This document shows, one piece after another, positions 20,101 to 60,877 of a stretch of DNA of 64,000 nucleotides; within the stretch, counting starts at the first letter, position 1; each line of letters begins with the position of its first letter. Both the position numbers and the translations under genes were made by a program. Below the pieces are notes generated by a model. That model saw nothing but the letters and a program-made list of their open reading frames with translations, had not been told where the DNA came from and made no database searches. Origin of the DNA: Capitulum mitella. Lineage: Eukaryota > Arthropoda > Thecostraca > Pollicipedomorpha > Pollicipedidae. Location of the stretch: assembly GCA_030062745.1 (NCBI GenBank), contig CP099847.1, positions 4,076,304 to 4,140,303 on the forward strand, read 5' to 3'.

Positions 20101-22819
20101 ACAGACTTGACAGGCGGCGCATAATGACCAAAAGGTCGAGGCACGCCTCTAAACCCAATATAAGTAAGTAAGTAAGTAACTGAACCATCCAGTATCACAC
20201 TGAGCCGTGTAACAGTATTACCCATGGACGTATACTTAGTTTTTGTAGATTGCATGACATGACATTGCACTTTGGGTTTCTTGTGTGCAAGGCAGGCAGG
20301 TTGCTGTACTTTTATGCTACTGACAAAAGGCCGCAATCAGCAGCATACAGTACAACGTGTCCACTGTCACGTGCGCCGGTGACCTGAATTCTTAATGAGT
20401 ATGACGTCCCTGGCGGTGGAGGTGAGCTGAGTTCTAACCGGGCATGACATCACCGGCGGCGGCGGTGAGCTGAGCTCTTACCGAGCATGAGATCCCTGGC
20501 GGCGCCGGTGCGCGCCATCCCGAAGGCCGGGTCGGCGTCACCGTCGAACTTGTCGACGGAGAACTCCCAGTAGTGGCGGCCGCGGGAGAAGCCTGCAGAG
20601 GCCAGCACCAGCCGGCTCTCGAAGCTGTCACAGGTGGCGCTGCAGTTGTCCGCACTGAGCACCACGTCCCGGTGCCGGCCCAGCGGGTCGAACGTGAACC
20701 ACGCCACTGCAGCCGGACACAGCCGTCAGCAGCCGACCAACGTGAACCACGACACTGCCCCCGGAGACAGTCGTCAGTACCCGACCAACGTGACCAACGT
20801 GTGCCTGACCATACCACTGCCCCCGGACAGACCCGTCAGAAGCCGACCAACGTGAACCAAGCCACGGCCGCCGGACACAGCCGTCAATACCTCACCGCGG
20901 TGAACCACGCCACTGTCCCCGGACACAACCGCCACCTCCAAAACCGCCAGTACCTGACCAACGTGAATAACACCACTGCCCACGGACAGAACTGTCAGTA
21001 GCTACCCAACGTGAACCACGCCACGGCCGCCGGACGCAGCTGTCAGTACCTCACCAACGTGAACCACTCAACCGTCCCCGGTAACAGCCGTCAGTACCTC
21101 ACCAACGTGAATAACATCACTACCACCGGACAGATCCGTCAGTAGCCGACCACGTGAACCACGCCACTGCCCCTGGACACAGCCATCAGTATCTCACCAA
21201 CGTGAATAACACCACTGCCTCCCGACAAACCAGACAGTACCTCACCAACGTGAATAACATCAATGCCTCCTCGACAAACCAAACAGTACCTCACAAACGT
21301 GAATATCATCATTGCCTCCGTAAGGAACCGACAATGCAGGACGCAGTCCACCGCAGACACGTTGAGACAGTCGCCAAGAAGGGCAAAACAGGAAGGTATC
21401 GTTCCCACGAAAGCCGGCATTTTGATAATATTTGGCGTTTTCCAATAAACCCTAACGGTGGCCTTACGGAACCGAATTCGAGTACTAGAAATTTTCGGGT
21501 ATTCCAATGATGGTCCGAAAGGCCGGATCGGTTCACATATCCTACAACACAAGTGAACGAGTTTGGAAAGTTCTATTGTATGCCATCCGAAATCAGAAGA
21601 AGGCCCAGAAAAGGAACACAGCACAAAGTGGGTCGATTCCTGATTTAAGACGAACACATATAACGGAAATTGGAGACGAGTTTTGCTTTGCGGCATTGAA
21701 CAGCTACACTTTTACGACAGTCAGATACCTGTCGCATGTGATTGGGCTTTCTGTCACGCTTGGGAAATTTTTAAGTTGATCGTAATCTGACAACGGGTTT
21801 ATGTAACAGACATGTCCATTTTGGACTTGCTGTCGGCCTCTGTATGCGATAATGTTCATGTCAATATCTTTTGGAACATGCTAGCAACTGGCGTTAGTTT
21901 ACCACTCTTCTCTCCCTAAAAAAAAAACAGACACATGCTACGGTGAATATTAGTAAAAAGACTAAGGATTTCGGAGAACATTTTCCTGTGTGTTACATTT
22001 TCTGTCTTTTTTCGTTCGCTTAAAATGATAAAATAATCCAACAGTGCTTCTTAAACGGCAAACTGATGTCAAAATTGCTCCACAAGAAAACTAGCTGGCA
22101 ACACTAGTCTGATGAAAGTGACAATGGTCGTCGTTACTGATCTGCACAAAGCGTCAGAATTTACATGTTATTGAAATCGTACATTTGGCCAAACGTGAGA
22201 GCTTTTGTTTTTCATAATAGTCCACACGATTGGGCGTGGACGATATTCGGGCCTGTTCTCGCCTGCCTATCTGAGGTAGGCTTGCACAGTCGTACGTCAC
22301 AGTGTGTGACGTCACGTCTGGACAGGACACTGTCGACTGGTCATGTCCGCCCCGCGAACCGTCCTGTGCTGAGCAATACACGCGGTTTCCTTCCCCAGAG
22401 AGGGCCTGCTCAGCATGTCTGCCAGGCGCTCGGTCGGCGTCGGTCAGCAGTACTGAACGGCGGTTCCGGCGGTGACTGCGGCGGCCCGGCAGCGAGCCAG
22501 TGACGCCCTCTTCAGCCGGGGCCAGAGGCCGTGCGCGCAATCTGTCGCCGCTTGAACGGCGGCCAGACCGGGCGCCGGGACAGAGCCAGAGCCGGCCGGC
22601 CCTCACCCCACTTCCTCCACCCAGGGTCACGCACCATTAGTGCTTTTGTGTTGCCCAGCTTTTTCTCGTCGCCGCCTGGCACGGAAATGGCGCGTGGCAC
22701 CGCCGTTCCCCCTCCCTCCCCTCTTCTTTCTCAGCTGTCCCTTTTTACGCCGGCACTCCGAGCTTCTTTGCAGATCTTGTCACTGTCCGTAATCTTTAAA
22801 AGATCCTAATCTACCCTAA

Positions 22820-22870
<51 letters not shown>

Positions 22871-22895
22871 CCTCTTTCTCTCTCTTTCTCGTTCC

Positions 22896-22928
<33 letters not shown>

Positions 22929-25900
22929 CCCCCTCTCTCTCCCTCTCCTTTCGTCCCCTGACATCACCGTGAGTTTACGCTTGGTCTCTTCGCATCCCCT
23001 TCCCTTTCTCCCTCTCTGGCGACGGTGCTTTTCCGTTCCAGCGACGCAAACCAAACACAAAAGATTACTTGATATTGTTACTAGGCTTGCATCAGCAGGG
23101 GAAATCATGAAATTGCTTCGTACCAAAGAAGATACCAAATGTTAATTCTCGACTTTAACGGCAATTTTATACGCAGCTAGTTTGGGTTCCAAAGAAAAAA
23201 ACGGGGACTGTATACGTGTGTGTGTGTGTGCGCGTGGTCGTCATGGTTTCGAAAACACTTAGCACAAATTATGTTCCACTGTTTAACGCGTATTCGAAGC
23301 ATTTAGTTCCACATAGAAAAGTACGAAACGAGCATAAAGGCTTGAAATCTCCTCGAACAAAAATGCGCTAATGCTGACGAAAATACGTAGAATTGCGTAA
23401 GGCACACACACACACGAAAACGAGTGTTTACAACCTGAATTGCACCATGTGGCACGCACGAGAACGTGTGAAAAAAAATGTGTCTTACCGTCGCTGGTCT
23501 TCAGGCAGATGACCTGGCTGGGGTGGCCGTCGCCAGTGCTGTTGTAACCTTTGACGCGGCAGACATAGCGAGTGTTGAAGTGAAGGCCCGTGATTCGACA
23601 GCTGGGTTCCCGACCACAGTAGGCATCCTGCGGAGACAGACAGTGCAGAAGGTAAGCCTCCCAGCCACAGTAGGCATCCTACAGAGACGGACAGCACAGA
23701 AAGTAAACCTCCCGGCCACAGCAGGTATCCTGCGGGGACAGACCGCGCAGAAAGTCAGCTTCCAGGCTACAGTAGGCATCTTTCGGAGACGCACAGCGCA
23801 GAAAGTCAGCTTCCAGGCTGCAGTAGGCATCTTTCGGAGACGCACAGCGCAGAAGGTCAGCTTCCAGGCTACAGTAGGCATCTTTCGGAGACGCACAGCG
23901 CAGAAAGTCAGCCTCCCGGACACAGTAGGTATCCTGCAGACACAGGCAGCGCAGAAAGTCAGCTTCCCGGCCACAGTAGGCATGCTACGGAGACAGACAG
24001 CGCAGAAGGTCAGCCTCCCGGCTGCAGTAGGTATCCTGCAGAGACGGACAGCACAGCACGTCAACTGCTGACCGACGTAGCGGAGAAACATCAGGCCCCT
24101 CTCGCTCCTCATGAGACCGCAGTCTGCTCCTGCTCCTGAAGGAGTGTTAATTCATTCCTGATTCTGACAGAAACTGCTGACTAACGTTTTATCCTTAGCA
24201 AGGGTCTCTCAGCGACGCCTCAGCGTCACAGGCCGGGAGTCCATTTTCCGTCGCTGCCGACGAATAACGAACAGACCATCGTTACACACCGGTTCAAAGA
24301 TCGCCGGCCGTCTGACAGGCGCCGAATTTAACGCGGTCGTAATGTGTAACCGGAAATCGCGAAGCCCGCCCATCGACTTCAAGCTGCTACTCCGCCGGTC
24401 GGTTGGGCCGGCCGGAAATGAGCGGGTCGAAATCGCTCGGCGAATTTGCTGGCGCGGCTCCCGCGGGCTGGGACGGCGGCGCGCAGCTGGGAAGCCGGCG
24501 GAGTTTCCGTAGTCGGCGCCGTTGTTTGTTTAACAATGAGCGGCTGTCGACGAGCACCGTACCGTCGCGAGCCAGCGGGTAAACACAGCGGCCTCCTGTC
24601 CAGCAGGCGTGCCGACAGCTTACCGGCCGCCGGACGGCAATAGCTTGCCGGAAATCCGACCAGCTGGGGCGCTGGCACTGCCAGCACGAGCTGTTGTCAG
24701 CTCACCCTCGTGAGCTGCCGGAAACGCCACCGTCTGGACTTCTTTACTGATAATCCAGCACTAAAGTACAGTGTCGATCCGAAGCTCAATGAAATTACAG
24801 ATGAACATTCAACTGAGACACCGGAGATCAGTGTCGTTCTATAAACCAGTAAAGTTCTCGTCCTCGTTCTTGTGTTGTTCTGGTCGTTCCTGTGCAGTAT
24901 ATCAGTAAAAACTATCCAGCAGGGTAGCATTCATTACTCATCAAGCTCGCATTACCCGAAGCAGTCGGTTTAGATTTCGTTACAGGCAACAGCAAACGTC
25001 AAAACCTGGACAATAAGGGCTACGAAATCCCCAAAATGGCGCTGAAAGCCAGCTAGTTGAAAACGGCAGCTGTTATAAACCGGAAGAGTAAAATGTGAAG
25101 GCAAATACAAAGGTGACTGGTTATACAAAGGTGATTACAAAGGCAGCTTGGCGATACAAAAAGGAGGATGAAAATACAAGGGTGAAATATCAAGCAAAAG
25201 ACACTCCAGGAATCAGAAATGCACGAAGAGAGCGCCATTTCAACCTAACGGCGACAGGTAGAGAGTTTAATTCACGTATTAAACGTGTCGCCGCTCCTCT
25301 CGCCGCTGAGTCTGTGACAGCACGCCGGCGGACCAGGAGCCGGCCAGTCAGAGGCTGAAGGATCAGAGGGCGGCGGATCAGGAGGGCGGCGGATTACAGG
25401 GCGGCGAATCAGAGGGCGGCGGGGCAGAGGCCGGCGGGTCGGAGGGTGAAGGATCAGAGGGCTGCAGATCAGACGGCGGCAGACCGCACGGCGGCGGAAC
25501 AGAGAGTGGCGAATCAGAGGGCGGTGAGTCGGAGGGCGTCGGATCAGAGGGCGGCGGACCAGACGGCTGCGGATCAGAGCGCGCCGGATCAGAGGGAGCT
25601 GGATCGGAGGCTGATGAGCAGGAGGGAAGCGCGGCCCACCTTGAAGCCGGTGCCGTCGTCCAGCTGCACGATGAAGCCGTCGTGGTGCGAGGTGGGCCGC
25701 GGCCGCCAGCTCAGCAGCAGCGTGTTGTTCTCGGCGGCGCACTGCTCCGGCACCAGGATCGGCATGCCGGGCGCTGCGGGCCGCGGAGAGGGGCAGCGTT
25801 ACAGCGACCCTGTCTCCGTCTGGTGCCGCCTCCGGCTGCTGCGGTGCGCTGACAGAGCTCGGCGTCGAAAGGAAGACTAGTGCACGACCCGGAAGTAAGA

Positions 25901-28900
25901 TTCGCCGGTTACAGTCCAGCGGTACAAGAACCCAGACGTCACGTGGGTTTGGTGAGGACGCTGGAGCAACATCAGAACAAGGTATGTACATTATCGATGA
26001 ATTGCTCTTCCATCAGCACATTGCGTGGTAACGTTTGGTCACCAGTCGTCAGACCTGTTGCATAACACGTTTCGCGGCATCAGCGTAGTTTCCGAAGACA
26101 TCTCCTAACATCGAGCTCATCAGACGGAATAACGAAACTTCCCCCTTTTATGGTTTACTCATGCAATATCACATGATATCACTGACACATCTGCGCAAGC
26201 ATCACTGTTTGATATCAACCATCATGCCACCATGATAGCAACCATCTCTATTTTATGCCTTCCATTTTTACCATGCTTTAGCGAAGAAGCCTTAGATTTT
26301 TCCAGTGCTTCGTGTGTTGACCGTTGAACAAATTGTGAAATAACTTGGAATTGTGGGATATGGTGTACAGATTCGCCAATCTACAGACTTCACAGGACAT
26401 GGCTGGGAAAATGACTGATTCCTGGTGCAACATGTGGTTTATGCCCACGCTAGTAAAAGTGTGAAAATATGTGGCGCGTCACGTGGAATTCCGTGAACAA
26501 GCAAAACTGACCTAAGACGACCGTATGCGCCGCACAATGGACCACATGGCCAGAGATCCTGTGGGACTGACAGGCTTTTAACCCCTTTCCCTCCCCACTA
26601 TACACACACACACGATTCATATATTTTGGCATTGGAAATGTGGCCGGTCTGAAATCCTATTAAGACTGATTCTAGAAAATCTCGTGTGGCAATGCAAAAC
26701 TGAAAGAACATAGCAAGTTGCACGGCCAATAGGTGATTCGTGATTGTCATGAATTCTTGCCGTTCATTTCCTGTGAAAGCGTGCGTAATGTTTTATGATC
26801 CCCACTGTTTCCTTTCATATGATTTACATGGAAAGTATAAACACATCGCAAGAAGCCCGAATTATGGTGTCATATACTCTCATATGTTGAACAAAAATGA
26901 ATAAACCACTAAGTTCCTAATAAGAAACATTAAGCATACACTGTAACAGCAGTTTACAGAAGCCCATAAAATGTTAGAGCCATGCACAGAAGTACAGCAA
27001 AGCTATGTCAAGCAAATTACCTGCTGGCTTTCTTTCCTCTCCTGGTTTGCTGGCTACAGCAGAGAAGGCGAAATCATATACCTCTTCCAACTCAAATGTG
27101 TTTAGCACATCAAAACCGAAATGAACGTTTCCTTGAAACGGAAAATGAATGTCTTGGGATTTCAATGGGGTTTATTCCGTAGTTCAAGAACACCGTAGTT
27201 TGGTTCAGCACCGACTAAGGATAGATCGAGAGGCCCAAAGGGACCATTGTGCATCATGATGCCTCATTTTGGAGAACAAACAAGGACAAAAACAAATTCA
27301 TCCTAAGTGACAAAAGAACACCTTCAGTTGGTTACGGAACCAAAGCACGCAAAGATCAGATGTCTTTTTTCTCCACAAACGAAAAGATGCCGGTATTTCC
27401 GCGCCACTGTTTTCTTCTAGCTATTTTAATTCTCTTGCAACGAAGTTTCACTCATAACTATTTGTACATCACGCATGATGGCCGTTCAGCATGTTTTGTT
27501 CTGAGGCATTAGGAAAACGTGGAAGGCTTAAATAGTACCTGAGAGAGACATCAGCCAATGTCACGTTGAACGGCCCGCGATGACGTAATCAGAACTTTTA
27601 GCAGTAACTGTGTTCTTCGGACAAAGAATCTGTTAAGAACTGAATAACTACTGGAGCCATCCGTTCGTAGCAAACAACGTATCATACGAGAGCTTACGAA
27701 TATATGTGTCATTGACACAGCCAATGCGTTGTTTGAGCGGTTCAGATACTCTAAAAAATCATTTGCAGTCAAAAGAGGTTAAAGGAGAGAAAAAATGCAA
27801 CTTTTACGCTGAGCAAATGCGCATAAAAGTGGACCTTCTTTTGCGACCAACTTTTTGATTCGATACGAACAGTTCTAATGATGATTATATTACGTGTTCT
27901 TCGTTAGACTGATGAATTTTGAAAGTCCATTAAAATATGCTCTACTTGGATATTTTGGAACAAAATGGGCATTTTGCTGGGTGCTTTTGGCGGATTTCTG
28001 CAACTTTTAGCGCACATATTTAATGAACGTCGTGTAAGATGCGTCTCTCAAATACTTCGCGTGGAGTACATAAAAATAAACAACCGTGAAACCATCAGAT
28101 GTCAGCGTAACGTCCGATGCAGTCGCAACAGAAAAGTCCACTCAAACTTGGAGCCACTCCATCTCCAACAACAAAGAGAGCGGATCTGGCCAGAGGAGTC
28201 GGAAGGGGCGGGGCGGTCCTGGTGGCCGACCCGGCCGGCCGGTCGGCGCGCGCCACACTCACGCTTCATCTCGATGAAATGGAACTGCTCGATGGCGGCG
28301 CGCACCGTGTCCGTCTCCAGACTGAGGTCCAGGTCGGCGCTGACCTGCGGATCCACCATGTCCCGGTCCCAGAGCAGGTCGTACGAGGCCACGCGGTGGG
28401 TCAGAATCTGGCTGATCTGGAGGACGGACGGCGCGTCAGAGCCGGGGGCGGCCGGGCCTACGGACCGTGCCTCTCACAGAACGGCCGCAGCCAGACAATC
28501 CTTCATGCAACGGATGGGCTAACGGTGGGAGTAATGACTGAAAATGGATCCACAGCATGGCCAAGGAGCTTTCTATGATTTCACGAGGTGCAATCTCTCC
28601 CCTACAGGAATAACTCGCTCCCCCTGCTTCTTACCTGCAGGAAGGCGCTGTCATCCCTCTCCTTGAGCGCCTCGATGCAGAACATGAGGAGGCCGTTAGT
28701 CTTCTGCAGCCGGGACGTGGCTCTGGACACCTGGAAACAGTGGAGCGTGACAGCTAAGTCCGGGCCGCCTGGGCCAACGGTGCTCAGAGGCCGGTGTCTC
28801 ACGGCGATCCGTGATCTATCATTCTGGGAGAGGACGAGGGACCGGATGGCCCGGGGGTAGAGCGCTGCAACTCGGGCCACGGGGCGTATGTTCGGATCCG

Positions 28901-31900
28901 ACCGACTGCGCGGGTTTTATCTCTCTTTGGTTTCCTAGACTGCCATTGCTAGCAGCAATCAGAAAGGTCGTTAAAAAGCTGCAAACGACAATATCAGCAG
29001 CTTGGTGAGGAACAGAACAAATTCAGGGTCAATGAACACTGGGAAACCCAATAGAGGGAGTCCTGTTTACTAAACCAGCATACCTTGAGGCAGGGTAACC
29101 GAGCACGCCTTGAGAGTAAGGATGATGCGTTGATGATTTGTGAGAACCCGAATACTGGCGACGAACAGTGCAATATCAGGCGTGGCAACGAGGCGTGTAA
29201 CGGGACGTGCCACGACGTGCCACATTGAACTAAACTGATCTTTATTGTCACCTGCACATGTGTGCGTAAGAGCCTCTGAAATGTGACCAAACCTTTTGGT
29301 TTTAAGCGAGGCCTCGGTGAATGACGCACGATGACTGAGCTGACGGCACACAAAGGCGAAATCTCTGAGAGGCTCCTCCACGTGTCAGGGCCGCCGCCTG
29401 GAGTGATGATGCCATGATGGCGCGGACTGAGCTGACCACATACAAGGGCGCGGTGTGTGAGAGTCTCTCCCGCGGAGAGGGTGAGGGGGCCGATCTGCTC
29501 ACCTGCTGTTTAAGCGAGCGAATTTTGTCGTCCCTGGCGTCGCGCAGGAACTGGACCAGCTGCTGCCGCCGCTGGTAGATCAGCTGGACGAGCTGGTCGC
29601 ACTGCTCCACGATCGACGACTCGAAGCTGGAGCAGTTTTCCTGGCGTCGAGGCCGCTCCGTTAGGACGACTGCGTGACCCATTAAAGCCACTTAATATTC
29701 TGTCAACGGCCTCATGCGCAGCGACAGGACCACCCAGCTCCGTCTCGGGCCGTATCCGAACATTCCAAACACCAGCAACCAGTTCAGGCGTTTCGGAGAA
29801 TCGAGGAGTGCGCTGGCAATTCCGTCCACCCATTTTTGTCATAACTGCTGCATTTTTACCTTTTTGATTTTCCCCAGTCTTTTGCGGCCCTGGAATGCAT
29901 CACTGAGAACTTAATGAGTCCCTCGACTGTCCTTCCAGGCCCGTTCCAGTTTTTGCTTCGACTCAGACCGTTAATGATTCGTCTGCCAGGTAAATTGGAT
30001 ACATGAACTGGTCCCGATAGACGGATATCAATACCGTCCAACAGCCGACTGTTCCCCAGAGATCGTCCATTCGTTCTGCCGGTGTCCGGGGAGGCGCACC
30101 AGGGCTGATTACGGTCCGTACCGTGACGAGTTACCGGGGTTTCACGGCTGCACAACAGACATACGTTATGTGGGGAGATGTATAATAAATTTTCCCCCGG
30201 CGCAGGCAGGAAGGGCATCCCTCAAGGGTAGAAGGGCCAAAAGCGGAGAAGATAGAAAAGGAGAAAGAGAGAGGAAGGAGAGAGAGAAGGAGGGGAGAGA
30301 GGGAGAGAAAAAAGATAAATAAGACAGTCTAAAAGGCCAAGAGAAGGACTGATAGAGTGGCAAAATAGCAGAAACATAGACAGTCGCAGACACCCACCGT
30401 GGCCACGTCGGTGAGGCTCTTGAGCTGGTGGATGTAGTCGGCGGCCGACTTGGCCCGCTCTGTGAGCTGCTGCAGGTGAAACGACAGATCCGTCTGGGAA
30501 CAGAAGGGGCGATCAGCGCGCTGGCCGAACCGGAAGTCCCGCTGCACCTTCTCGCTTCGCTAGGTCGGCCCATCAGGCCAGCAGCGCTGCAGGGCGAGCC
30601 ACCACCCCGGGCTCATCATCCTGCCACACAGAGCGGGCCGCCACCCGGGCCCATCATCCTCCCACGGACCAGTGTTATGTCACCGCTGCGTCCAGCATCA
30701 GCTCTGGTTGCACTCCTGGAATGGAGCGTCATGACGGAAGAGGGCAAAACAAGCTAAGAAAATGCCGTTCACTTCACAGATCACAGAAAAATGATTCCGT
30801 TTCTTATCCTTCTCATTGGAACATTTTCATCGGAACATTTTCATGTTCTCGGAACGAAATATTCCAAATGCGCTCAATCAAGAAATATTTGCTAAAAGAC
30901 AGGCTGCTGCGTGTTTACGAACGCTGACCATTTTGCACGCTTGAATGTTTGGCTAAACCAAGACTGGGATATTTCCCAAGAACTGTGCACTTTAAACCGA
31001 AATGACTTGGTCTAACATGACTGAACTATTTATGGTTATTATCGGGGTAAATGTTGCATGACACAACGAGCTTTAAGGGCGTGCAATCGCCAATGGCCTT
31101 CCCGTGTTTCCCACAGGCTTTGAAAGAGAGTGTAATCAAGTACAGAAATTTAACTGAACCGTTAAGTTCTGACGTTTTCGATGTCATCACATGTGGTCAA
31201 TTACTTAATGAAATCGTCTTGATTTCCGCTTTTATGCACTAAATTTGTATCCATTTGGTGCTACTACAATAACGTCCCGTGTTAGTGAGTGTTGCTCGTC
31301 CATGATCTTTTACGCACATGAAGATGAGCTTGACTCTTCACCAAATATGTAATTATATGACCCTGAAACTTCAGTGATTGGAGCAACATAGACGTGTAGA
31401 GCTACTGGACTTCTTTCAAAAATGTTCTTCATGCCAAAAACTTGTGTACAAAGTTTGTTTTTGGGGATGGTGCCAGGATTTTCCACAATATTCAGAAGGT
31501 TTCGCAGTGAGCTGCTGCAGTCAGGGGTTCGATGGTCACGTCACAGGAAGTTCTGGTCTTGCCGGCGGTCCGCTCCGTGGACCAAGCGTCCCGACGGTCC
31601 CTGGCGGTCTGACCTGGCGTCCCTGGCGGTCTGACGTGACCCCCGGGCCGGGTCTATTTCGGAGCCGTTCCACGACATACGGAGAGACCGGCAGAGCGAG
31701 GACGGGAGCTGGCGGTGACGCGGCGCCATGGGTGGCCGCCCGCCTGAACACTGGGGGAACACCGGTCGGTGCTCCGGTGGTCCGAGTTCTGGCGTCACAA
31801 ACGCGGAACACCGCTCATGGCGATACAGCAGGCGTTGCCGTTTCAGTGCTGCGTTAAGCACGTCGAGTTGTGCCATGCCAAGCGTTCTGTTTCCTGTGCT

Positions 31901-47580: not shown

Positions 47581-48317
47581 GGTGCTCATTCTTGTTGTCG
47601 AACAAAATAGCATGGAATATACTTTCACTGCATGTTAGTTTCGTTGTTTTCCTTAAATAAATATCAAAGTTATCGGCTTTTAAAATATGGTACATAACTG
47701 TGGGACGCCCGTATATCTGGTCTCATTGGGATACCCAAATGTGTTCCATTTGCTTTTCCTCATGTTTGCAGATCGCCTTCTTTTCATGTTCATTGAGCGA
47801 TAACAAGCATTACCGTCACTTGCATCCCTTGTCCGCTGGCATTTAGTTTGATACGATACAAATAAGAAATAAGCCTGAAGCGAAAGCTATTTATGCAACA
47901 CAAGGGCAAGGAAAAGTGCATCGCAAACTTGCCTGTGGTTTCCATCTGAATGCCACGTGTCCCTGAACCTCTGTATTTGCTTACAGTCAATCCATGAGAT
48001 ATCTGAAATCGTCATGGCGTGAAAAAGGCAAAAGTTTCCCGATGAACCTCGACTGCCTTCGTGTCACCGGCTGGGTAAATCACGGTTGGGGCAGTAGCCC
48101 CTCAGTCTTTGAATGCATTTAACGCAAGCCCTATTACGTGTTTTTTTATTACATCGCTTATTGTGGCGATGGATGGAAAGAAATCGACTAAACACAATTC
48201 TGTCCCTGCCAGCTTTAAACAGGTTCCTATCTCTATGTCCTTCCGTTTCCGTTTTTTAACAGCTTCCTCTACCAGTGCCACTCTGTCATGTGAGACTGTG
48301 GGAGGAAATCGTGCCCG
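47581..48317. other. No gene recognised
   Basis: Intergenic AT-rich sequence between the transposase relic and the foldback-type element. Confidence 0.4.
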
Positions 48318-50105: not shown

Positions 50106-51333
50106 ATGGAACCGGCGGAATTCATTTCGTCACAGGTGAAAACTGTGTAATCAATGTCGTGGCTGGATGTAGCCGAAGAGACCTGTAAATATCATGTTTA
50201 TAATGCATAGATTGCCAGTAGTTTCACAAAACGTATGCATATATGATTTAGCAAAGGGAAACGACCTTGTGTTTGAAAGCTGACGTAAAAGATGCCGAAA
50301 CGGGTTACCCTAAATTTAGAGGTATTTCGTTTTTCACTCGTAAAACAGCATGATACGACGACTCGCCAAGTTTACAAGGTACTCTGCATTTGATACCAAC
50401 CCACGCTTTCATTCGCCATTATCTTCCTGGCTCTCATCATTCTTTCGAACTGGTAGCTGACTGGAATATGAAATCGAACACGTTGCTTTCGCTTTGTTGC
50501 TTACTATAAAAGGCGTCTCCATGGTTTTGTATGCCGGTGAAGACGATTTTATGTGGTTTGTCATGAAGCTTACTTTAAAATACTGCCAACGGAAAAACAC
50601 ACCACACACACAAACTATATATGATCAATTTGGTGAAGCGCTGGAAGATAGCAAACAACCCTGAACAAGAGGCTGCATTTGTGAGACCATTTCACCACCA
50701 GCATCAGTCGGTCAAACCTAAACACACGCTCACGCAGTGTGCCCTGCGGCCCTCGACAAAAGACACTTTTCATACCATGCTGGTGGTATGAACTGCAAGA
50801 CGGTCTACCACAGAAGCGTCGGCGTGTGCATTGATTTTAATAGCCGATGCTCGGAGATCTGTGCACAAAACCAATCACCAATACATTGTTCACATTTGGC
50901 AACGCTTCAAGAGCATGTGCAACAAGAACAATACAAAAACTACCTTAGGTATCAGAACGCACCAAAATGATCCGTATCACTCATCGTGTGTTTTAAAATG
51001 CATGCTTGTGCGATCCAAGCTGGTTCTGTGACACGCATGTCCTGAGCCACTCCAGGGTGATCTCTAGAACTCCCAACACACACAAGAACACTGCATGGAA
51101 CCACATGGGCGACAAAACCGTTCTCGAGGTTCACGACCTCTGAGATGTTCACTCCAAAGATGGGGCTTCCTGGCTGATCACCATCGTTGATTAGTGTAGT
51201 AAGGTCCGTACAAAACTTCGCTGCTGTCTGAGATCTTTCCAGCCTGGACGGGCGAAACTTTAGCTGTCAGGTTTCCAGCCAGTTCAGGGCGTCACGTGGT
51301 GAGAAGTAAAGCTTCTGGTGGAATCTTCCACCC
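50106..51333. other. No gene recognised
   Basis: Intergenic DNA downstream of gene B. Only short frames without domains. Confidence 0.4.
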
Positions 51334-51339
51334 TTTATT
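51334..51339 (-). terminator. Candidate poly(A) signal for gene B
   Basis: Minus-strand AATAAA 313 bases beyond the stop codon at 51652. The distance is ordinary for a 3' UTR. Confidence 0.4.
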
Positions 51340-51504: not shown

Positions 51505-51697
51505 GCGCAGACCAGACCCGACCAGACAGGCCGCATCGGGGCCCCTCAGACGGTCCGCTCGGTAGGTCCGGTGACCATGAGCTGCAGCTGTCCGCGCCGG
51601 AGTTGTCGGGAAGACCAGACCAGATCGGACCGGACCAGACACCACGGTTGGCTATGAACTGTCGCTGTCCGTGCCCGAGTGCTCGCCGGGAGGCTCC
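51505..51697 (-). repeat. About 77-bp duplication of the gene B terminal coding sequence
   Basis: 51573-51616 resembles the last coding part of exon 10 (51651-51697): ATGA-CTG, GCTGTCCG, CCGAGT- and TCGGGA-type blocks align in order at an offset of about 77 bp, with GACCAGAC-type sequence between. The copy lies past the stop codon and has lost it. Confidence 0.6.
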
Positions 51698-51786
51698 ATT
51701 CCTGTGCGCAGGCGCACTTTGCAGTTCCTGTTGATGCTCACTGCCGGATAGAATGTGCCCGCCAGGTCTGTGAAGGCCACCGGACC
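51652..51786 (-). CDS. Trim9: Gene B last exon: end of SPRY and stop
   Basis: Forty-four codons and TAG. Acceptor TTTTCAG|GGTCC. It reads GPVAFTDLAGTFYPAVSINRN, keeping the TRIM9 core, then a longer acidic tail than gene A. Confidence 0.92.
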   Translation of the reverse strand, partial: GPVAFTDLAGTFYPAVSINRNCKVRLRTGMEPPGEHSGTDSDSS

Positions 51787-54700
51787 CTGAAAATAAAACA
51801 CGGTGCAGCATGTGAGACACGACAGGAATCACCAGATAACTGAACAAATAATGAAATGTTTCACAACGTATAAGAAACCATAATGAAATCTTTCACAACA
51901 TATAAGAAACCATGACGACGTCTGTACCACTTTCACTTTCGGTTAAACTTTCCTCACCGTCCTCAGTAACAGAAAGCAGGGATCCTTCCCCCCCTTCAAT
52001 TATTCGGCACTGTCGACACCCGACTGTCTATTCATATTCACCCGACCGCCTATGAGTCACATAGTCGCCTGGCTTCGCCGACACAATAAAGCCGCAGACA
52101 CTGAGCCCATGTCCCATCGCGAACATGATCAAGTCCACGGTCTTCCTCGAACATCTCTAAACGACTAATATTAAAAGCAAAGGTGGCATTTTTTCTGAGA
52201 CCCGAGTGCTTAAAACCCTATAAAAACTACAGGCCGAGCAACGCAAAAAGTCTGGTCTGCGTAAAGTCCTAAAGAACCCATGGGGAGCACACTACAGAAT
52301 ACTTATACACAATCCCATTGGAGCGCAAGGCAGTCCGGAGTTAATCGGAGTCGATCCAGCTCAGGTGAATTCGAGCTCATCCTCGGTTGGTTGGTTGGTT
52401 ATTGGGGCTTAGGGGCGCACCGACTGCAGGGCCATTCGGCGCCCATTCGAGCTCATCCTCAAAACGGTTCAGAGGAGTCTTGGGTAGACTTACTGCCGTT
52501 GCTAGAGATACGGGGAAGGCGCCTTGGAAGGGCCTAGACGCCATTTTTCAGACATTTAAATATTCGGCACATGACATTAGCTCGGAAAGTGCCCGAAACT
52601 TTATTCAGACCTTCAGCTTTCGGCAGTCCCCTGCCATGCTTAAAGCTGCTTTAAGATGGCCTAAGGTTTGTCGGCGACCGGCTCACGATGGGTTCCCTCG
52701 AGTGCCTGTGCAGCATATTCAAGAGTCTGAGGTCCGTCAGTCTGCTGCCGGCTCAGAATAGTCTGAAATCTGTCACAGTCAGTCTGCAGTCTGGTGGCGG
52801 TTCCGCGACTGATTTACTGCCCGCTGCGGGGGAGCGTCTCACCTGGGGTCGGCCGTCCACGAAGAAGCGCAGCTGTCCGCGGCCGAGGTCCAGCAGCACT
52901 CCGACCACGGCCGAGGCTCGCACGCCGCCCTCCTGACGCTGACCGTGCCGGCCGGCGTGCATGAACCACGACCGCTGCCCGTCAATGTACATACTCCAGC
53001 CCAGCGCGTCGGCGCCTGTCAACAGGGCAGCGCGTCATCAGCATCCACGACCGCTAGCCATCAACGTACATACTCCAGCCCAGCGCGTCGGCGCCTGTCA
53101 ACAGGGCAGCGCGTCATTAGCAACCACGACCGCTGCCCGTCAACGTACATACTCCAGCCCAGCGCGTCGGCGCCTGTCAATAGGGCAGCGCGTCATCAGC
53201 AACCACGACCGCTGGACGTCAACGTACGCACTCCAGCCCAGAGCGTCGGCACCTGTCAACAGGGCAGGGCGTCATTAGCAACCACGACCGCTGCCCGTCA
53301 ACGTGCGCACTCCAGCCCAGAGCGTCGGCGCCTGTCAACAGGGCAGCGCGCCATTAGCAACCACGACCGCTGCCCGTCAACGTACATACTCCAGCCCAGA
53401 GCGTCGGCACCTGTCAACAGGGCAGGGCGTCATCAACTGGCCGTCAACGTACGCACTCCAGCCCAAAGCGTCGGCACCTGTCAACAGGGCAGCGCGTCAT
53501 CAGCAACCACGACCGCTGCCCGTCAACGTGCGCACTCCAGCCCAGAGCGTCGGCACCTGCCAACAGGGCAGCGCGTCATCAGCAACCACGACCGCTGTCC
53601 GTCAATGTACAAACTCCAGTGCAGAACATGAGCGTCTGTCAACAGCACAGCAGGAGGTCATCAGCACGGCTGACCACACGTCGGTCCGTAACATCACCTG
53701 ATTATACATCAGCTGACACTGAGCCATTCACAGTCCTCTGGTAGGTATCAGCAACAAGTCATAAGCATCACCGCAGAGCAGAGCACCACTTCATGTTGAC
53801 AATGGTTCGGCGGCAGACAGGGAGGTGGGCAGGCTAGAAAATGTGTCTGTATAGCGTTTGTAGGACTAAACGTCGCGTCAAAAGAGGACGCATGGAAAGA
53901 AATGGTCCAATGTTCTCAGATGCCGATCCGAAGCGAGTGTACTTTTATCCTTCTCAAGTGTACTTTTACAGCTCGGTCCCACATGCATTCGATAAGCTTT
54001 CAACAACAAGCGCGCGGTGCAGGAAGGTGCAGGAAAAGCCTGATCAGCCTAAACAAAGACCATCTCATCCGCAGGTACCTTTTCATCTCCGCTGGTTTGA
54101 ACCAGGACAGTGGGAAATCTAGTCAGGAATTAATCAGTTCGGACTAGTTATAAGCAATGTGGGAGATGGACTACAATTTTTTGGATCCGTCCTAGTATTT
54201 CAGAATTAGAGCCAAAGATTCGAATTCGGATGGTTGGAATATTCGGCTGAGTATTCAGGTTCGGCGAACGTTCCAATTTTGATTCCAAGATTTAAATGCT
54301 CGGCGTACTTTGGGATGGACACCTTTTCATGCAGATATTCGCCGAATATTCGAATGCCAGCCGAGCATTCGAATACTCTTACATTTTGCTGAAGAATCTG
54401 AGGAAAAATACGGTCCAAATTATACATCACCAAACGGAAATATTTGAGGCATTATTGCCTACCGTTGTTTTGGCTTCTGTGCATCGCCATGGATGAGAGC
54501 AATGCTGTGAGAGAAACTACCAACATATGATCCCTCCCCCCATCACCGTGACAAGGATCTGCCCATCATATTTTGTGGGGAAACGAGCAGCCTCGAGAAT
54601 AATCTGGCATTTGTTCCGTGTCTGGCAACGACGGGCAAAGAAGCCGGGTCGGTATCAGTCGGTGAGTGAAGCTGGACGCTAACGTTAAGTACATATGAGC

Positions 54701-57700
54701 CTGTTTATTTTGTCTATTTTGGTTTCTTGATGTGAATACAAGGAAAAGCCGGTCTCTCAGTACATTAATTGGCATTGCGCGTGCAATGCTTTCGCACATT
54801 TGCTGATTTTCCATTGTCACGAGCATATACTGATCCGAAATCGAAGCGGGAAACTGGGGCACCGGGAGCCCCACACATACTTTGCTAGCGATCAAAGTTC
54901 GGAATTCTCGTCACGAGGATATGGTTATCTTTAAACACATTGTATTCAACACGACATCAACCATATTTCATTGCTCTCTTTGAACAGCAGAAAAACGTGT
55001 ACGTATTCTGTTCACAAAAATCACATTTTCCGACGACGACGACGGTTTTAAATGCCTGTTACGGAGTAGTTAGGAGCAATACGGAGGGCCAAGAGGAACC
55101 AAGTTATAATTCTAATATTGTCTACAGGTACGGTAGAGGTAAGAGGTAAGAGATTCCTACCAGAGGTAAGAGATTCGCACTAACTTCAAGGCTGGATGGG
55201 TGCTTTCCAATGCTTATCTCTTCTTCTCAGACAATCATTCAGAAGTGCCGTATCGTATGGGCCTGACGTTCGCACCTCTGGTTACACATCAGGATGACTG
55301 ACAATCACAGCGCCCTCTGCCGCTGACGTCATGCCCCCCCCCCCACCTCGGCAGTACCCGGCAGCCGTCCGCCCGGTGCTCGGCGCCGGACGCAGCTTTA
55401 CACTTCTGACGTGTTCATGCAATTGTGTGAACCAGTCTGATTTGTACATATTGTTCCACGCATAGTGTCAGTAGTCCCAAACGTAAATCACCCGAACATA
55501 CAGTCTCAATAGTGCCAAACGTTTGGAACGAAACGGCACAAACTTTAAAAGAATCGAATGTACCCGTCTGAATGTTCAAATCCCAAAACGTATTCGAATT
55601 CCCAGCTCTATTTAAAATGTAACTGCTACCAATTAGGCCTCTCACCCAAATAACACCATCAAATGCACAAAATCACCACAGGTTTTGACTTTCTCTTTGC
55701 ATATCAAATCAGGTCTGCCATGTTTTGGCTGTCCTCCTAGCAAAACAATGATGGATATCAAAGCCAGGTGGGAAAAAATTGTCAGAAGCAGATCATATTT
55801 CACTGTGACGCACGGTGAGTCGCAGTTTGTTCCTGATTCCACATTCGGTTAACCCACCCGGGTACCCACAACATTCTTAGTTTCCTCCAGTATTTTAACC
55901 AACATCCATTGCCACACTTGGGCCTTTTCTCATAGTCATTCAACATACCATGCCATTTGATGCTGTCATTACATGCGATAAGTCAAAAAACAGCTTCAAA
56001 TAAACCAAAGTCCGTTTAATCATGTGTACGCTGTGAAAGAACAAGGACTTGAAATGATTCAAAGAAAAAGAAAAAATGAATGAGACAACCTCCTTGGCGC
56101 GATGTAATGTTATAAACGGCGAACATACCTTGGCTCTACACGCCTAAACGAAGCTAAATCCAAATCCGGTTACATTGGGGCTGCATGTTGGTTTTCAACT
56201 CAACCGTCTCTCAAGGCCTGCCCAAACTCCCACCTGTACTGCTGGCGACAGGTTTAGGTTTTGGCTGCGCCCGCTGCGGCCGGCTTTGCTAGCCAAATCT
56301 TGCCCGCCTGATTTTTAGCGTTCCATAACCGCAAGCTAATGTCAGGCATCCAAACAAGGCTTGCTAGGCTGTGTCTGAAGAAAAGCACCAGCCATCTGAA
56401 GGGGCTCACCCCGCATCTGATCCCCGGCGCCAGGCCACCTGGAGGAGCTCACCCAGCATCTGACCCCCGGCGCCAGCGCGGCTGACGGGACTCACCCAGC
56501 ATCTGCGACTTGGTGACGTCCGGCCGGGCGACCCCGAAGGCCGGGTCGGCGTGGCCGTCGTACCGCTCCAGGCTGAACTCCCAGTAGTGCACGCCGCGCG
56601 AGAAGCCCGTCGTCGCCAGCGCCACGCACGGCTCGAAGCTCTCGCAGCTCACGGCGCAGCTGTCCTCGGTGAAGCGCAGCTGCGGGTGCGACCCGCCCGG
56701 GTCCAGCGCGAACCACGCCACTGGAACGACGTCAGAACCCTGAGCAGCGTGAACCAGGCCACTGAAAAACCTCTAGAACCGACGGAATACGCCAAGTTAG
56801 CGCCGCCAGAACCTCCAGGAGCGTAAACCAGGCTACTGGAACACCACCAGAATGTCCAGGAGCGCAAACCAGGCCACTGTCATATCGTCAGAACCGTCAG
56901 GAACGCAAACTAAACCACTGGGACACCGTCAGAACCTTGAGCAACGTGAACCGGACCGATGTTGCGTCGTCAGGGCACCCAGGAGTGCGAATCAGGCCAA
57001 TGGAATACCGTCAGAGGATTCACGTGCGCAAACCACATCAGCGCGAACACATTACTCTGAAAATTGCAGAACTTACAACAGTTCGAATCAGAGCGAGAAT
57101 AACCTAGTCCGCTGTTGTTAAGCCAACCGTTGCAACACCATCCGAACATCCAGAAGCAAGAACCAGGTCACCTTGGTACAAGGTTAAAGTAAACACAGTG
57201 TGTCTCCGTACTTTTACTGCAAACAACCTCATGGCCACAAAAAAGTGTAGTTACCATTTAACCATTGTTTTGTTTATAGAGCGGATTTAGACGCGTGAAA
57301 CATGAAAAGATCATAACCATGGCAGTTGCTCATAGTTCTAAGGACGTGCACCATGTAATGCACTGGCATGGTTTCGCAGCAGCAGCTGCTACCGAGCGAT
57401 CGTCTTGCTCGCTGCAAACGACCTCTTCCCACTTGCGCTCGCGTATTTGCTGTGCATTGCATGCATGAGCTTTCCAAAATGTTACAGCACGGCAGAAAGG
57501 CACCGGAGCAGAAAATGTGCCGCGGCACCGCATGACGAGCTGACAGACCAGAGCGCTCACCTTCCGCAGTCAGCAAGCACACTGGCTGGCTGTAGGGCCC
57601 CGTCCCCGTGGCGTTGTAAGATCGGACGCGAGCCTTGTACAGGGAGTTGAAGTGGAGACCATCAATTGTGCACACCGTCTGTTGACCACAGTACACCTCC

Positions 57701-60700
57701 TGCAGAGGGGACACGGTCCTTTCAGCACATGTTGACAAAAACACGCCAGTACGGGGGACTGGGCGCAATATGATCACGAATTCCGAGCTCCATTACGCCC
57801 AAATAACCGATCGGCACTGACATGGAAGACGGCGACACAAGACCGTTGACTGCGGTGCACGGCCAGGGGACATGGGGCCTCTATCCACTGTCCGACGCAC
57901 GGACTGTTGGCTGACATATTATGCTACACATGGGCTACAAGGGCGTCATCACGGTAAAAAATTAAGGAAGACAGAGGTTTTTTATCAACTTATTTCCATG
58001 CAACGTCAACTGACACAATGTCCAATTTTGCAAGCATATGCGATGCTACCCCCCCCCCCCAGCGACGCTCATGCGAACAGAAAAGACATCAAGGGGTATT
58101 CTCAGGTCCCTTGACCTCAGCATGCTTTGTGGAGGAAAAACGCCTAAACGTTAATGAATCCATGAACCAATCCAGCAGCAGCAGGCAGCGCCTGCTGAAA
58201 AACAGGTACACTTAACTTTTTCTTAAGGCGTATTAAAAAAAATGGAAATAGTTTTGCAAGTCCATGTATGTGGTCACACACAACTCATGCAGGAGTCATA
58301 AAAGCGTTAGTGCACTTACATCCTACGACCTGTCAGGGTTAGATGGCACACCTGTCTAAGCAGACCCTCACCGCGTACTGGCCGCCGTTGCCGTCGTCCA
58401 GTTCGAGCACATGGCCCTCCACAAAGCCGGCTGGGTCCGAGCGCCACGCAATGACCACGCTGTTGTTCTCCGAGCAGCATCCCTCGTGGACGACAGACGG
58501 CGCTCCGGGCGCTGTCAAACGTTAGTACGTCCTACGTCATCGCGGAGCCGGGTGGCCCACGAAGATCCTCAGATAGTTCGAACAGTAGGTTAAATAAAAA
58601 TGGGCGTGCTTGGAAAAGGCAAAAATCGCCTTCGCGTTTCAAAGCGTTTCCTACCTTTACGACAACACGAACTGCAAGACCACGGTGCGGACCAAAGAGA
58701 TAAACGGGTCGTACTGAGGAACAGACGATATCGATTGCCTTTCATTGTCTGGAAAACTCTTCAATTTTTGGCTCCACTGTTCACAGATATATCTTCAAGC
58801 TCCTAGTTTGGCATTACAGAGCTCAACAAATCAGACATTTATCTATTTACACTGTGCTTCAAATCTTTTGCACCAAATTACGTGTTCAACAAACAAGTAG
58901 TTCGGACAAACAGATGTTAGGCACCGCAGCGGTCCGTGTTTCCAAATCGCCGACACCCGTCAGGTTTTGCTAACGCCAGCTGCAACGTGCCGTTCACAAA
59001 GATAAAATCCATCTTACGTTTCATTTGCATGAAGGACATCTGCTTGATGGCCTGCTCCACGGCGCTTGTGTCCAGGGTCAGCTCCGTGTGGAGCTGCGGC
59101 TTCGACAGCGACAGCGCTTTCAGCTCCTCGTCCAGGCTCTGCAGCACCGAGTCGGCCCGGCCCTGCAGCGTGGCACCCATCTGCAGGCAGAACAACACGG
59201 ACTGAGCATGGAACAACGCCATCCGAGCACAGAATAACGTCCGTCTGAGCACACATCCGCCGTCTGGGCACAGAATAACGACCGCCTGAGCACATAACAG
59301 CCGTTCTGGGCACAGATCAACGTCCGTCTGAGGACAGAACAGCCGTCTGAGCACAGAACAACGTCATCCGAGGACACTATCGTCTTGAGCACAAACAAAC
59401 GTCGTTCGAGGACAGATTAACAGCCGTTTCGCATCATCCGAATACAGTGTGATAGCCGCCTGGGCGTCGACTGCTGCAATCTGAGGGCAGCGTCTGAGCG
59501 CGGAGCATTATACATCTCACGACGTAACTATTTAGCAATAAAATCACCTCTCAGGAAATAGCTGCATCTAACCAAGGTAAGCCATATGAGCTCATAGCAT
59601 TGCTCTAGTGAAATTCTCCTAAGCGATGGTAGCTGTTTCCAGTTTCCTGAAAGTGTCCAAGGAAGCGCTATCACGCTGGAGACAGACGTCAGCCGTGTCA
59701 CTCTCAGCACGGTGACCGATGACCTGAAAGAGGGCTACCCTTCCGTTAGCACGGTGCGCAGTGAATACTGGCCTCAGGAAGTCCACACTGCTGTTCTCCC
59801 GTCGGCACGGTGCCGCACAGAACGCTGACCTGCAGGAAGGCCACACTGTTGGGCTCCCGGAGCGTCTCGATGCAGAAGCGGAGCAGGCCGGTGGTGCGGT
59901 GGATCTGGCCGGTCCACGAGGTGACCTGTTCGCGGGCGGCCGCCGTCTGGCGCTGGCTCTCCTGGCGGACGTGGTGCAGCAGGCGCTGCTTCCGCTCCTG
60001 CAGTGCCGCGGCCAGGGCGTCGCACTGCTCCGAGATGGTCTGCTCCAGGGCCGCGCTCGATTCCTGCAGAACAAGTCAGCGTCACGACCTGGTCCAGCAT
60101 GGATTAGCTTTTCCTTAAATCATGGAAGGAAGGAAAACGTTCATTGTCATGGTCTTTTGTAGATCTTTATACGGGGAAACTGTTTACCCGTTGCTACAAA
60201 ATGCAAGGTTTGTTAACACGCCTTTGAGACGAAAAATCAAAACTTCCATCGAGCTGTTTAATTCGTTTGCCGTTTATTAGATTACGTATTTGTTCCACTT
60301 CAAATGTACTTTGGCGCTGTCGTTACCTTACCCAGAATACCTGTAACAAAAGCTGTGTGTTCATTACCCACCGAGAGCTGTTTCAAATATCCAACCATTC
60401 TAGAGCAAACGGAAGCAGACGATCACTGGCTGTAACTGCGTCGTCCCGTCTGTCCCCGAGTGTCCGGTGTCTTGTCTGAATCGCCTGCCGGCCTGCAGCG
60501 ACCGTGCAGCGTCGGTCCGTGATAGGGCATACTCACGCTGACCGTCTGCGGTGGGCAGCGTCGGCCCGTGACAGGGCATACTCACGTTAACCGTCTGCGG
60601 TGGGCAGCGTCGGCCCGTGACAGGGCATACTCACGCTGACCGTCTGCGGTGGGCAGCGTCGGCCCGTGACAGGGCATACTCACGTTAACCGTCTGCGGTG

Positions 60701-60877
60701 GGCAGCGTCGGTTCGTGACAGGGCATACTCACGCTGACCGTCTGCGGTGGGCAGCGTCGGTCCGTGACAGGGCATACTCACGCTGACCGTCTGCGGTGCC
60801 TGCCGCAGGCGGTGGATAACCTCCGTGGCCGACTTCGCCCTCTCGGATAGCGACTGAAGGGTCCGCGACAGCGTCGT
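51652..60877 (-). CDS. Trim9: Gene B: second TRIM9-type gene, 5' partial, 8 exons in window
   Basis: Eight exons joined give 1305 nt, 434 residues plus stop: coiled coil (1-110), COS box (111-164), FN3 (165-257) and SPRY (258-434). All introns are GT-AG and each splice phase equals that of gene A, so the two are paralogues of one ancestor. Gene B has one fewer intron, a longer and more diverged COS box, and a Ser/Asp-rich C-terminus ending DSDSS. Its FN3 half EVYCGQQTVCTIDGLHFNS is closer to human TRIM9 than that of A. No RING or B-box exon is present from 60878 to 64000. By analogy with the 14.8-kb first intron of A it may lie farther upstream, or the gene may lack it. Expected role: TRIM9-like, at microtubules or netrin signalling; E3 activity unproven. 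Confidence 0.9.
52369..52460 (-). mobile_element. Very short hairpin retroposon, copy 2, with 16-bp TSD
   Basis: The element at 52385-52444 (60 bp) is flanked by ATTCGAGCTCATCCTC at 52369-52384 and again at 52445-52460, a perfect duplication. It starts (minus strand) GGGCGCCGAATGGCCC and ends CAATAACC with four AACC units in all, against two in copy 1 at 6553. It lies in intron 9 of gene B. Confidence 0.85.
52843..53015 (-). CDS. Trim9: Gene B exon 9: SPRY domain, second part
   Basis: 173 nt as in gene A. Acceptor GTTGACAG|GCGCC, donor CAG|GTGAGA. It reads LGWSMYIDGQRSWFMH, VVGVLLDLGRGQLRFFVDG. Its first 50 bases are copied into the adjacent 79-bp array. Confidence 0.92.
52961..53640 (-). 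repeat. 79-bp exon-edge array at the gene B exon 9 acceptor, about 9 units
   Basis: The plus-strand phrase ACTCCAGCCCA recurs every 79 bp (52993, 53072, 53151 and so on to about 53613), with one unit shortened to 67. Each unit has about 28 intron bases, including TGCTGATGAC and the acceptor CCTGTTGACAG, then 50 bases of exon 9 that still encode LGWSMY-DGQRSW. Confidence 0.94.
53661..56495 (-). other. Remainder of gene B intron 8
   Basis: Apart from the ATTCG-rich stretch at 54.2-54.4 kb and a C-run near 55336, I see nothing in it. Confidence 0.5.
54190..54390. repeat. Degenerate ATTCG/CGAAT-rich stretch
   Basis: ATATTCGCCGAATATTCGAATG and similar partly palindromic words recur through about 200 bases of gene B intron 8. 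Origin unknown. Confidence 0.6.
56496..56720 (-). CDS. Trim9: Gene B exon 8: SPRY domain, first part
   Basis: 225 nt, same length and phases as gene A. Acceptor TTCCAG|TGGCG, donor CTGG|GTGAGT. It has VAWFALDPGG, GFSRGVHYWEF and ADPAFGVAR. Confidence 0.93.
56707..57015 (-). repeat. 41-bp exon-edge array at the gene B exon 8 acceptor, about 7 units
   Basis: The phrase GCGAACCACGCCACTGG at the true exon edge recurs as GCAAACCAGGCCACTGG-type copies at a spacing near 41 bp (56711, 56752, then after a 74-bp step 56826, 56867, 56908, 56949, 56989). On the minus strand each gives CCAGTGGCCTGGTTTGCGC, the acceptor AG plus the exon start. The same junction of gene A is amplified with a 48-bp unit. 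Confidence 0.88.
57561..57699 (-). CDS. Trim9: Gene B exon 7: FN3 domain, second half
   Basis: 139 nt. Acceptor CTGCAG|GAGGTG, donor GAAG|GTGAGC. It reads EVYCGQQTVCTIDGLHFNS and YNATGTGPYSQPV. No array at its edge, unlike gene A. Confidence 0.93.
58372..58511 (-). CDS. Trim9: Gene B exon 6: FN3 domain, first half
   Basis: Two bases plus 46 codons. Acceptor TTTGACAG|CGCCC, donor GCG|GTGAGG. CCSENNSVVIAWRSDP and GHVLELDDGNGGQY match CCTHNNSATLSWKQPP and GYILELDDGNGGQF of human TRIM9. Confidence 0.93.
59018..59180 (-). CDS. Trim9: Gene B exon 5: COS box
   Basis: Fifty-four codons plus one base. Acceptor CTGCCTGCAG|ATGGG, donor AAAC|GTAAGA. Only the end (HTELTLDTSAVEQAIKQMSF, then MQMK) resembles the family well. 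The first 30 residues are diverged and three residues longer than in gene A, so microtubule binding may differ. Confidence 0.88.
59181..59425 (-). repeat. 19-22-bp array abutting the gene B exon 5 acceptor, about 11 units
   Basis: GAGCACAGAATAACGTCCGTCT-like units begin within 15 bases of the exon 5 start. On the minus strand they read TTATTCTGTGCTCAG, echoing the real acceptor GTTGTTCTGCCTGCAG. No exon sequence is included. Confidence 0.8.
59830..60063 (-). CDS. Trim9: Gene B exon 3/4: coiled coil, middle and last parts, fused
   Basis: Seventy-eight codons in one exon, exactly the 46 plus 32 of gene A exons 3 and 4. Acceptor TTCTGCAG|GAATCG, donor CAG|GTCAGC. LEQTISEQCDALAAAL aligns with FESSIVEQCDQLVQLI, and TTGLLRFCIETLREPN with TNGLLMFCIEALKERD. 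The join is at EQ-VTS, where gene A has a 772-bp intron. Confidence 0.93.
60506..60799 (-). repeat. 49-bp exon-edge array at the gene B exon 2 donor, six units
   Basis: GCAGCGTCGG starts units at 60506, 60555, 60604, 60653, 60702 and 60751. Each unit on the minus strand holds CCGCAGACGGTCAGC|GTGAGT, the last exon bases and the consensus donor. Units 2 and 4 read GGTTAAC in place of GGTCAGC, so the amplification partly went in pairs (98 bp). Confidence 0.95.
60782..60877 (-). CDS. Trim9: Gene B exon 2: coiled coil, first part
   Basis: Thirty-two codons, acceptor CTGCCTCAG|ACG, donor AGC|GTGAGT. LQSLSERAKSATEVIHRLRQ aligns with LQQLTERAKSAADYIHQLKS of gene A. First gene B exon in the window, starting in phase 0. 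Confidence 0.92.

Follow-up and report, generated by a model that had tools for sequence, protein, structure and literature searches.

Can the edge of an exon become the founding unit of a minisatellite, and how does such an array leave the neighbouring exon usable? The question is raised by two neighbouring genes, both on the minus strand, in a 64,000-nucleotide stretch of DNA (contig CP099847.1; hereafter the window): gene A, which is of the TRIM9/TRIM67 E3 ligase type, and its paralogue, gene B. Tandem arrays containing the splice junction stand at 8 of the 33 junctions of the two genes, one of them weak (the donor of B exon 3), or at 8 of 34 once the donor of B exon 1, which lies outside the window and is free of arrays, is included. 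We consider these arrays, with good confidence, to be minisatellites of the type termed "mirages" in amphioxus, whose repeat unit spans an exon-intron boundary. An earlier, sequence-only reading of the window had named five junctions (the acceptors of A exons 7 and 8 and of B exons 8 and 9, and the donor of B exon 2), each beginning an array with a unit made up of the splice site and exon bases. All five were confirmed, and three arrays missing from that list (donors of A exon 8, B exon 8 and B exon 3) were added. Junctions are referred to below by gene and exon number (e.g. A7 acceptor), with the exons of gene B numbered after their counterparts in gene A, as we assume the sequence-only reading also did.

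Coordinates, unit lengths and copy numbers are collected in Table 1. Junction probes aligned along each region placed the copies in register with the real junction at regular spacings (51, 48, 41, 79, 43, 43 and 49 bp, with few irregular ones), and the unit lengths previously given for the five arrays (51, 48, 41, 79 and 49 bp) were reproduced, with 9, 11, 8, 9 and 6 copies, respectively. Across these five arrays the exon bases per unit span 16-52, with approximately 20 in the A7 acceptor array, 16 in A8, 16-17 in B8, 51 in B9, and 17 in the B2 donor array. The acceptor AG is intact in 5/8 spare copies of A7, 7/10 of A8, 4/7 of B8, and 8/8 of B9, while the donor GT is intact in 1/2 spare copies of A8 and 2/2 of B8. 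In the B2 donor array, which has a mean unit likeness of 95.5%, all five spare copies carry GTGAGT. The B3 donor array, with one GC and one GT spare copy, reaches 21/32 in a 32-bp self-match for which the threshold was set at 22/32. For the B8 acceptor array, Tandem Repeats Finder (TRF) alone reports just 56803-56936, and one copy located at 56795 by alignment was set at 56803 in later calculations. Two looser cases proposed previously, at B exon 5 and at the last B exon, did not hold, given that their arrays end 32 and 61 bp short of the exon, respectively; the B5 junction, with a self-match of 19/32, equal to background, is not clearly part of its array, and the repeat near the last exon is purely intronic and excludes the junction. 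Similarly close is a 15-bp array of about 16 copies (25360-25596), which starts 43 bp after the A6 donor and excludes the junction.

Assignment of the real junctions rests on the gene models. The gene A protein matches RING, B-box, FN3, and SPRY domains, and its closest Protein Data Bank (PDB) structures are TRIM67 (7qs5, E 1.4e-63) and TRIM9 (7b2s, E 7.6e-62); domain and structure matches thus identify it from its predicted sequence as a TRIM9/TRIM67-type ligase, with a coiled coil assigned by comparison with TRIM proteins. Gene B is of the same type through its homology to gene A: 190 of 423 aligned residues are identical (exon 1 excluded), with a synonymous divergence (dS) of approximately 0.8 by simple count. 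Reading frames are open across every assigned junction in both genes. Exons 2, 7, 8, and 9 are of equal length in A and B (96, 139, 225, and 173 bp, respectively), A exons 3 and 4 (138 and 96 bp) correspond to a single 234-bp exon in B, and the length differences at exons 1 (753/639 bp), 5 (154/163 bp), and 6 (134/140 bp) are each divisible by three. Open frames and matching exon lengths therefore fix the authentic splice sites in both genes.

Table 1. Positions of genes, exons and repeat arrays. Positions are those of the window unless marked as local coordinates of another locus.
Feature	Position	Strand	Details
Gene A, TRIM9/67-type	15906..46088	-	10 exons, 674 aa
Gene A exons 1-5	46088-45336, 30493-30398, 29640-29503, 28730-28635, 28416-28263	-	
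Gene A exons 6-10	25773-25640, 23627-23489, 20706-20482, 16746-16574, 16021-15906 (coding end)	-	
Gene B, paralogue of A	51651..60877	-	8 exons within the window
Gene B exons, first four in window	60877-60782, 60063-59830, 59180-59018, 58511-58372	-	
Gene B exons, last four	57699-57561, 56720-56496, 53015-52843, 51786-about 51651	-	
Gene B exon 1	L066:2573-3211 (local)	-	just outside the window; completes a 647-aa frame
A7 acceptor array	23608..24063	-	51-bp unit, 9 copies, exact 51-bp spacing
A8 acceptor array	20691..21303	-	48-bp unit (some 47/62/63), 11 copies
A8 donor array	20373..20510	-	43-bp unit, 3 copies
B8 acceptor array	56721..57000	-	41-bp unit (33 bp in one case), 8 copies with that at the junction counted
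B8 donor array	56391..56505	-	43-bp unit, 3 copies
B9 acceptor array	52964..53645	-	79-bp unit (67 bp in one case), 9 copies of which the outermost is weak
B2 donor array	60506..60798	-	49-bp unit, 6 copies
B3 donor array (fused 234-bp exon)	59749..59859	-	about 57-bp unit, 2-3 copies, weak
Degenerate array upstream of B exon 5	59204..59376	-	19-22/41-bp units bearing AG
Intronic repeat at last B exon	51848..51913	-	32-bp unit, 2 copies
Rab gene L046, one intron	1078-1264 and 1572-1782 (local)		donor array and acceptor array

Mean unit identity per array ranges from 61 to 96%, although some neighbouring units are near-identical (up to 96% in A7 and 94% in B9). Searches of the 477-Mb genome (the same assembly, 16 contigs), which provide lower bounds, returned at least one match for the A7 array, namely itself, and, among the matches listed for the A8 junction region, nothing beyond that region, the array it belongs to, and its B8 counterpart. 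These two arrays therefore appear to have arisen in place. That they are artefacts of assembly is very improbable: one amphioxus mirage was apparently misassembled in a draft genome (PMC3087553), but the copies described here differ from one another, the arrays sit inside a 30.8-Mb contig, and arrays of the same kind occur at independent loci.

Minisatellites across exon-intron boundaries were named mirages in amphioxus, where they are found in Adh3, the globin genes BflGb6 and BflGb9, PGBD5, and troponin C (PMC3087553, PMC3902484), and the earlier statement that no named class exists for such arrays is therefore wrong. As in amphioxus, an acceptor or donor is repeated in tandem together with part of the exon, AG or GT persists in many copies, and 5' and 3' boundaries are both affected. 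The authentic copy lies beside the exon with drifting copies further out, and the 41-79 bp units of the TRIM9 locus agree with published lengths (10-72 bp in Adh3, 60 and 108 bp in PGBD5, and 150-160 bp in the globin genes; PMC3087553, PMC3902484). Unlike amphioxus mirages, those described here occur in a host that appears arthropod-like rather than cephalochordate, and eight of them are gathered in two adjacent paralogues, known here from one assembly. Pieces of the TRIM9-type sequence were closer to fly than to human sequence (27/35 versus 18/31 and 41/79 versus 29/78), and GC content is 51-52%, unlike that of amphioxus. On both counts amphioxus was tentatively set aside as the host, a barnacle or another crustacean being at best a guess. 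The amphioxus reports describe copy-number differences between haplotypes and somatic instability at Adh3, and propose a role in intron gain; one of them leaves the origin of the repeats open but suggests unequal crossing-over for the instability and raises the possibility that spare sites act as cryptic splice sites (PMC3087553, PMC3902484).

Related boundary repeats are known in human genes and potato, while the name "mirages" was found in no organism other than amphioxus among the literature matches listed, subscription journals being mostly uncovered. The coordinates of the human CBS 31-bp variable number tandem repeat (c.1444_1467+7) place coding bases and seven intron bases in the unit, such that the donor is included; with 16-21 repeats it is polymorphic, and it differs from the present arrays as a single human locus (PMC2630376). 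In potato RdRp, a duplication took in the acceptor and the start of the exon along with a putative branch site and polypyrimidine tract, much as in the acceptor units here, but it became a new intron, whereas the A and B arrays show no new intron (PMC4974935). Minisatellites also shape gene structure in human segmental duplications, some of them at exon-intron boundaries as here, although these involve recent human paralogues and approximately half of the repeats are coding (PMC2812944).

How, then, might such arrays form while leaving the gene intact? We propose a short tandem duplication across the edge of an exon, in which the splice site is repeated with a few exon codons, acceptor duplications often bringing along a branch-point-like motif. 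The exon-side copy would keep the coding sequence and be held by purifying selection, while intron-side copies would drift freely and grow through unequal exchange or slippage. Splicing would use the exon-proximal site, presumably through exon definition across an exon of normal size, and the spare sites would have no regular use. The earlier reading had likewise suggested that duplications across exon edges are tolerated and then expand by unequal exchange. Consistent with this, the units span the edge, the proximal copy keeps the frame, and the copies have drifted, as expected after duplication and unequal exchange, the latter being the putative mode of growth; a clear excess over chance outside this selected locus is not supported by the control described below.

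The splice signals of the spare copies bear on this proposal. A CTRAY motif occurs 19 nt before the junction in 8/11 A8 copies, 22 nt before it in 7/9 B9 copies (an eighth has it at 25 nt), and 25 nt before it in 6/9 A7 copies, while in several B8 copies, read off the printed sequences, CTGAC lies nearer to the AG. AG or GT is intact in 33 of 44 spare copies (AG in 24/33 acceptors and GT in 9/11 donors). If used, 42/44 would meet an early stop, the two frame-open exceptions being the first A7 copy (+17 aa) and the B3 copy whose donor is GC (+19 aa), such that the first A7 copy alone combines an intact AG or GT with an open frame. Because nearly all spare copies would break the frame, their regular use is predicted to be unlikely.

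Several findings weigh against a simple preference for the exon-proximal copy. The real A7 site lacks the CTRAY motif present in 6/8 of its spare copies, and the real site obtains the top splice-site score in only 3/8 arrays (A8 acceptor, A8 donor, and B3 donor). Under this crude scoring, for which 12 acceptors and 12 donors served as the training set, real acceptors rank 4/9 (A7), 1/11 (A8), 2/8 (B8), and 2/9, tied (B9), and real donors 1/3 (A8), 3/3 (B8), 3/6, tied (B2), and 1/3 (B3). Since the authentic site does not always score highest, we infer that choice of the inner copy would have to rest on context, such as exon definition.

The intact signals could instead mean that the spare sites have a function as decoys or poison exons, tuning TRIM9 output via frame-breaking splice forms. 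The 33 copies with AG or GT are compatible with such a role, as are five of the eleven A8 units (within 20707-21215), in which GTGAG directly follows the exon-derived bases to give a microexon-like arrangement of AG, about 17 nt, and GT. Against it, AG or GT has been lost from 11/44 copies, the array at four of the six junction positions concerned (A7 and B9 acceptors, B2 and B3 donors) has no counterpart at the homologous junction in the paralogue, and splicing at amphioxus mirages is reported to be normal and undisturbed (PMC3087553). We therefore regard a decoy function as improbable and retain the duplication model, with spare copies that would see no regular use.

Whether junctions attract arrays is a separate matter. 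The sequence-only reading considered the placement to be far more than chance, a view that survives under some null models and fails under others; all excess tests at the TRIM9 locus are further qualified in that the locus was selected because of its pattern. TRF arrays contain seven of the 33 junctions (the B8 acceptor is not counted), and the 32-bp self-match also gives seven (B8 acceptor in, B3 donor out). TRF arrays cover 12.5% of positions 15906-61000, intergenic part included, and by self-match a close copy lies nearby for approximately 14% of the positions in TRIM9 introns. When the junction set was shifted, a mean of 3.9 junctions fell in arrays and seven or more in 331/3000 shifts; in the self-match test 5.0 were expected (P 0.22). 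Shift-type coverage tests, however, let junctions fall in mid-array, which selection would forbid. Counted by array, 7/26 TRF arrays in the two genes contain a junction, versus 0.8 expected for a randomly placed founding unit (0/4000 simulations as high) and 1.3 when each array is put at random into the intron it comes from and may take in as many as 60 exon bases (0/20,000). Excess over chance at this locus thus depends on the null chosen.

A Ras-family control from the same genome, a family not picked for its repeats, was drawn from the exon matches among those listed and included 29 of 49 planned gene regions. Removal of 11 duplicates from 71 exon pairs left 60 introns, six of which were dropped for a poor donor or score before the test for arrays, leaving 54 introns with 108 junctions at 34 loci (some loci share a gene). 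Thirty TRF rows were merged by hand into 17 arrays, which cover 4.3% of these introns and contain three junctions, versus approximately 4.7 expected from coverage. Three arrays with a junction compare with 1.9 expected under own-intron placement (P 0.29) and 1.0 under the unit null (P 0.08). The TRIM9 locus thus has more arrayed junctions than the control (7/33 versus 3/108, Fisher P 0.0015), with the reservation that it is a selected locus, and its array content, set against 4.3% in Ras introns, marks it as repeat-rich.

Junction-spanning arrays nevertheless occur at further loci of the genome. One Rab gene (L046) has arrays at both ends of a single intron, with a donor unit of about 21 bp and an acceptor unit of 56 bp that holds about 40 exon-derived bases per copy; two spare acceptor copies are identical over the printed stretch and are therefore probably recent. 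A second locus (L062) has an acceptor array with a 25-bp unit. For both loci (units of 21-56 and 25 bp), TRF reports longer periods as well. The number of arrayed junctions in the Ras-family control is close to that expected by chance, although the doubly arrayed Rab intron does extend the phenomenon beyond the TRIM9 locus. At another Ras-family locus, an array (L045:2970-3167) stops 8 bp before the acceptor (exon start 3176), a near miss.

These data leave finely balanced the view that no junction-specific process is at work, i.e. that minisatellites form anywhere in introns, selection trims them at exons, and some include the edge by accident. The coverage-based TRIM9 tests, the Ras placement test, and the richness in repeats of the TRIM9 locus are in line with that view, while the array-level nulls at the selected TRIM9 locus and, less strongly, the Ras unit null speak against it. 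With arrays of this kind at other loci and a TRIM9 locus both selected and rich in repeats, the counts do not establish any particular attraction of arrays to junctions. What is new is probably the occurrence of mirages in a lineage other than amphioxus, together with their density at one locus; should the host be an arthropod, their extension to a distant phylum would be the main new element. The wider proposition, that mirages are no cephalochordate oddity but recur across the genome of a distant, arthropod-like animal at every place where intronic minisatellites abound, multiplying complete 3' or 5' splice-site modules able to feed new exons and introns, seems to us as open to doubt as to belief. 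With a host other than amphioxus, minisatellites that span junctions would have more than one origin and would be a by-product of minisatellite-rich genomes in general. Loci of this sort offer a direct test ground for how the spliceosome chooses among near-identical sites in series, bear on whether duplicated splice-site modules turn into new exons or introns, and are a practical trap in gene prediction and assembly.

Do the two genes owe any of their arrays to a common ancestor? The A7, B9, B2, and B3 arrays are private to one gene, and junction arrays therefore seem to have arisen repeatedly. Exon 8 differs in that both of its ends are arrayed in both genes, which could mean that these arrays were in place before the duplication that gave A and B and came down to each gene. 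The acceptor units keep a similar exon length (16 versus 16-17 bp), among 14 comparisons between A and B intron flanks the acceptor side comes first by a wide margin (score 39, 0/500 shuffles, exon-derived bases included), and the donor units, both of 43 bp, agree at 23/43 positions when aligned in register (shuffle P 0.0006, a figure that takes in the donor signal and bases derived from the exon). Conversely, the intron parts of the A8 and B8 units exceed shuffles no more than do those of A8 and A7 or A7 and B9, the donor flank comparison is at shuffle level (318/500), and the donor arrays reach unequal exon depths (29 bp in A8 versus 10 bp in B8). With A7 and B9 units as controls, shared ancestry was not demonstrated, and we hold it to be doubtful.

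The remaining features concern the surroundings of the arrays. The window has no Rfam match at gathering thresholds, and positions 15001-40000, the part searched against a phage collection, gave no match. A intron 3 (28731-29502) is absent from gene B and reflects either gain in A or loss in B; its edges, CAG|GTGAGCAG and CAG|GTGTCCAG, may form a short direct repeat. An origin of this intron by tandem duplication was rejected, as comparisons with the flanking exons were at shuffle level (154/500 and 235/500 as good), with no residual similarity. Intron 8 of gene A probably houses a retroelement in opposite orientation (17841-19643, plus strand), a 601-aa open frame with an RNase H match (PF00075, E 2e-12). 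Between the two genes, approximately 1.8 kb (48311-50112) has long imperfect inverted arms, with complementarity of 79% over 116 nt and 89% over 79 nt in two examples. The arms in turn consist of tandem copies of a TTCGTATACGCA-like unit, and the whole stretch resembles a non-autonomous DNA transposon whose ends are repeat arrays.

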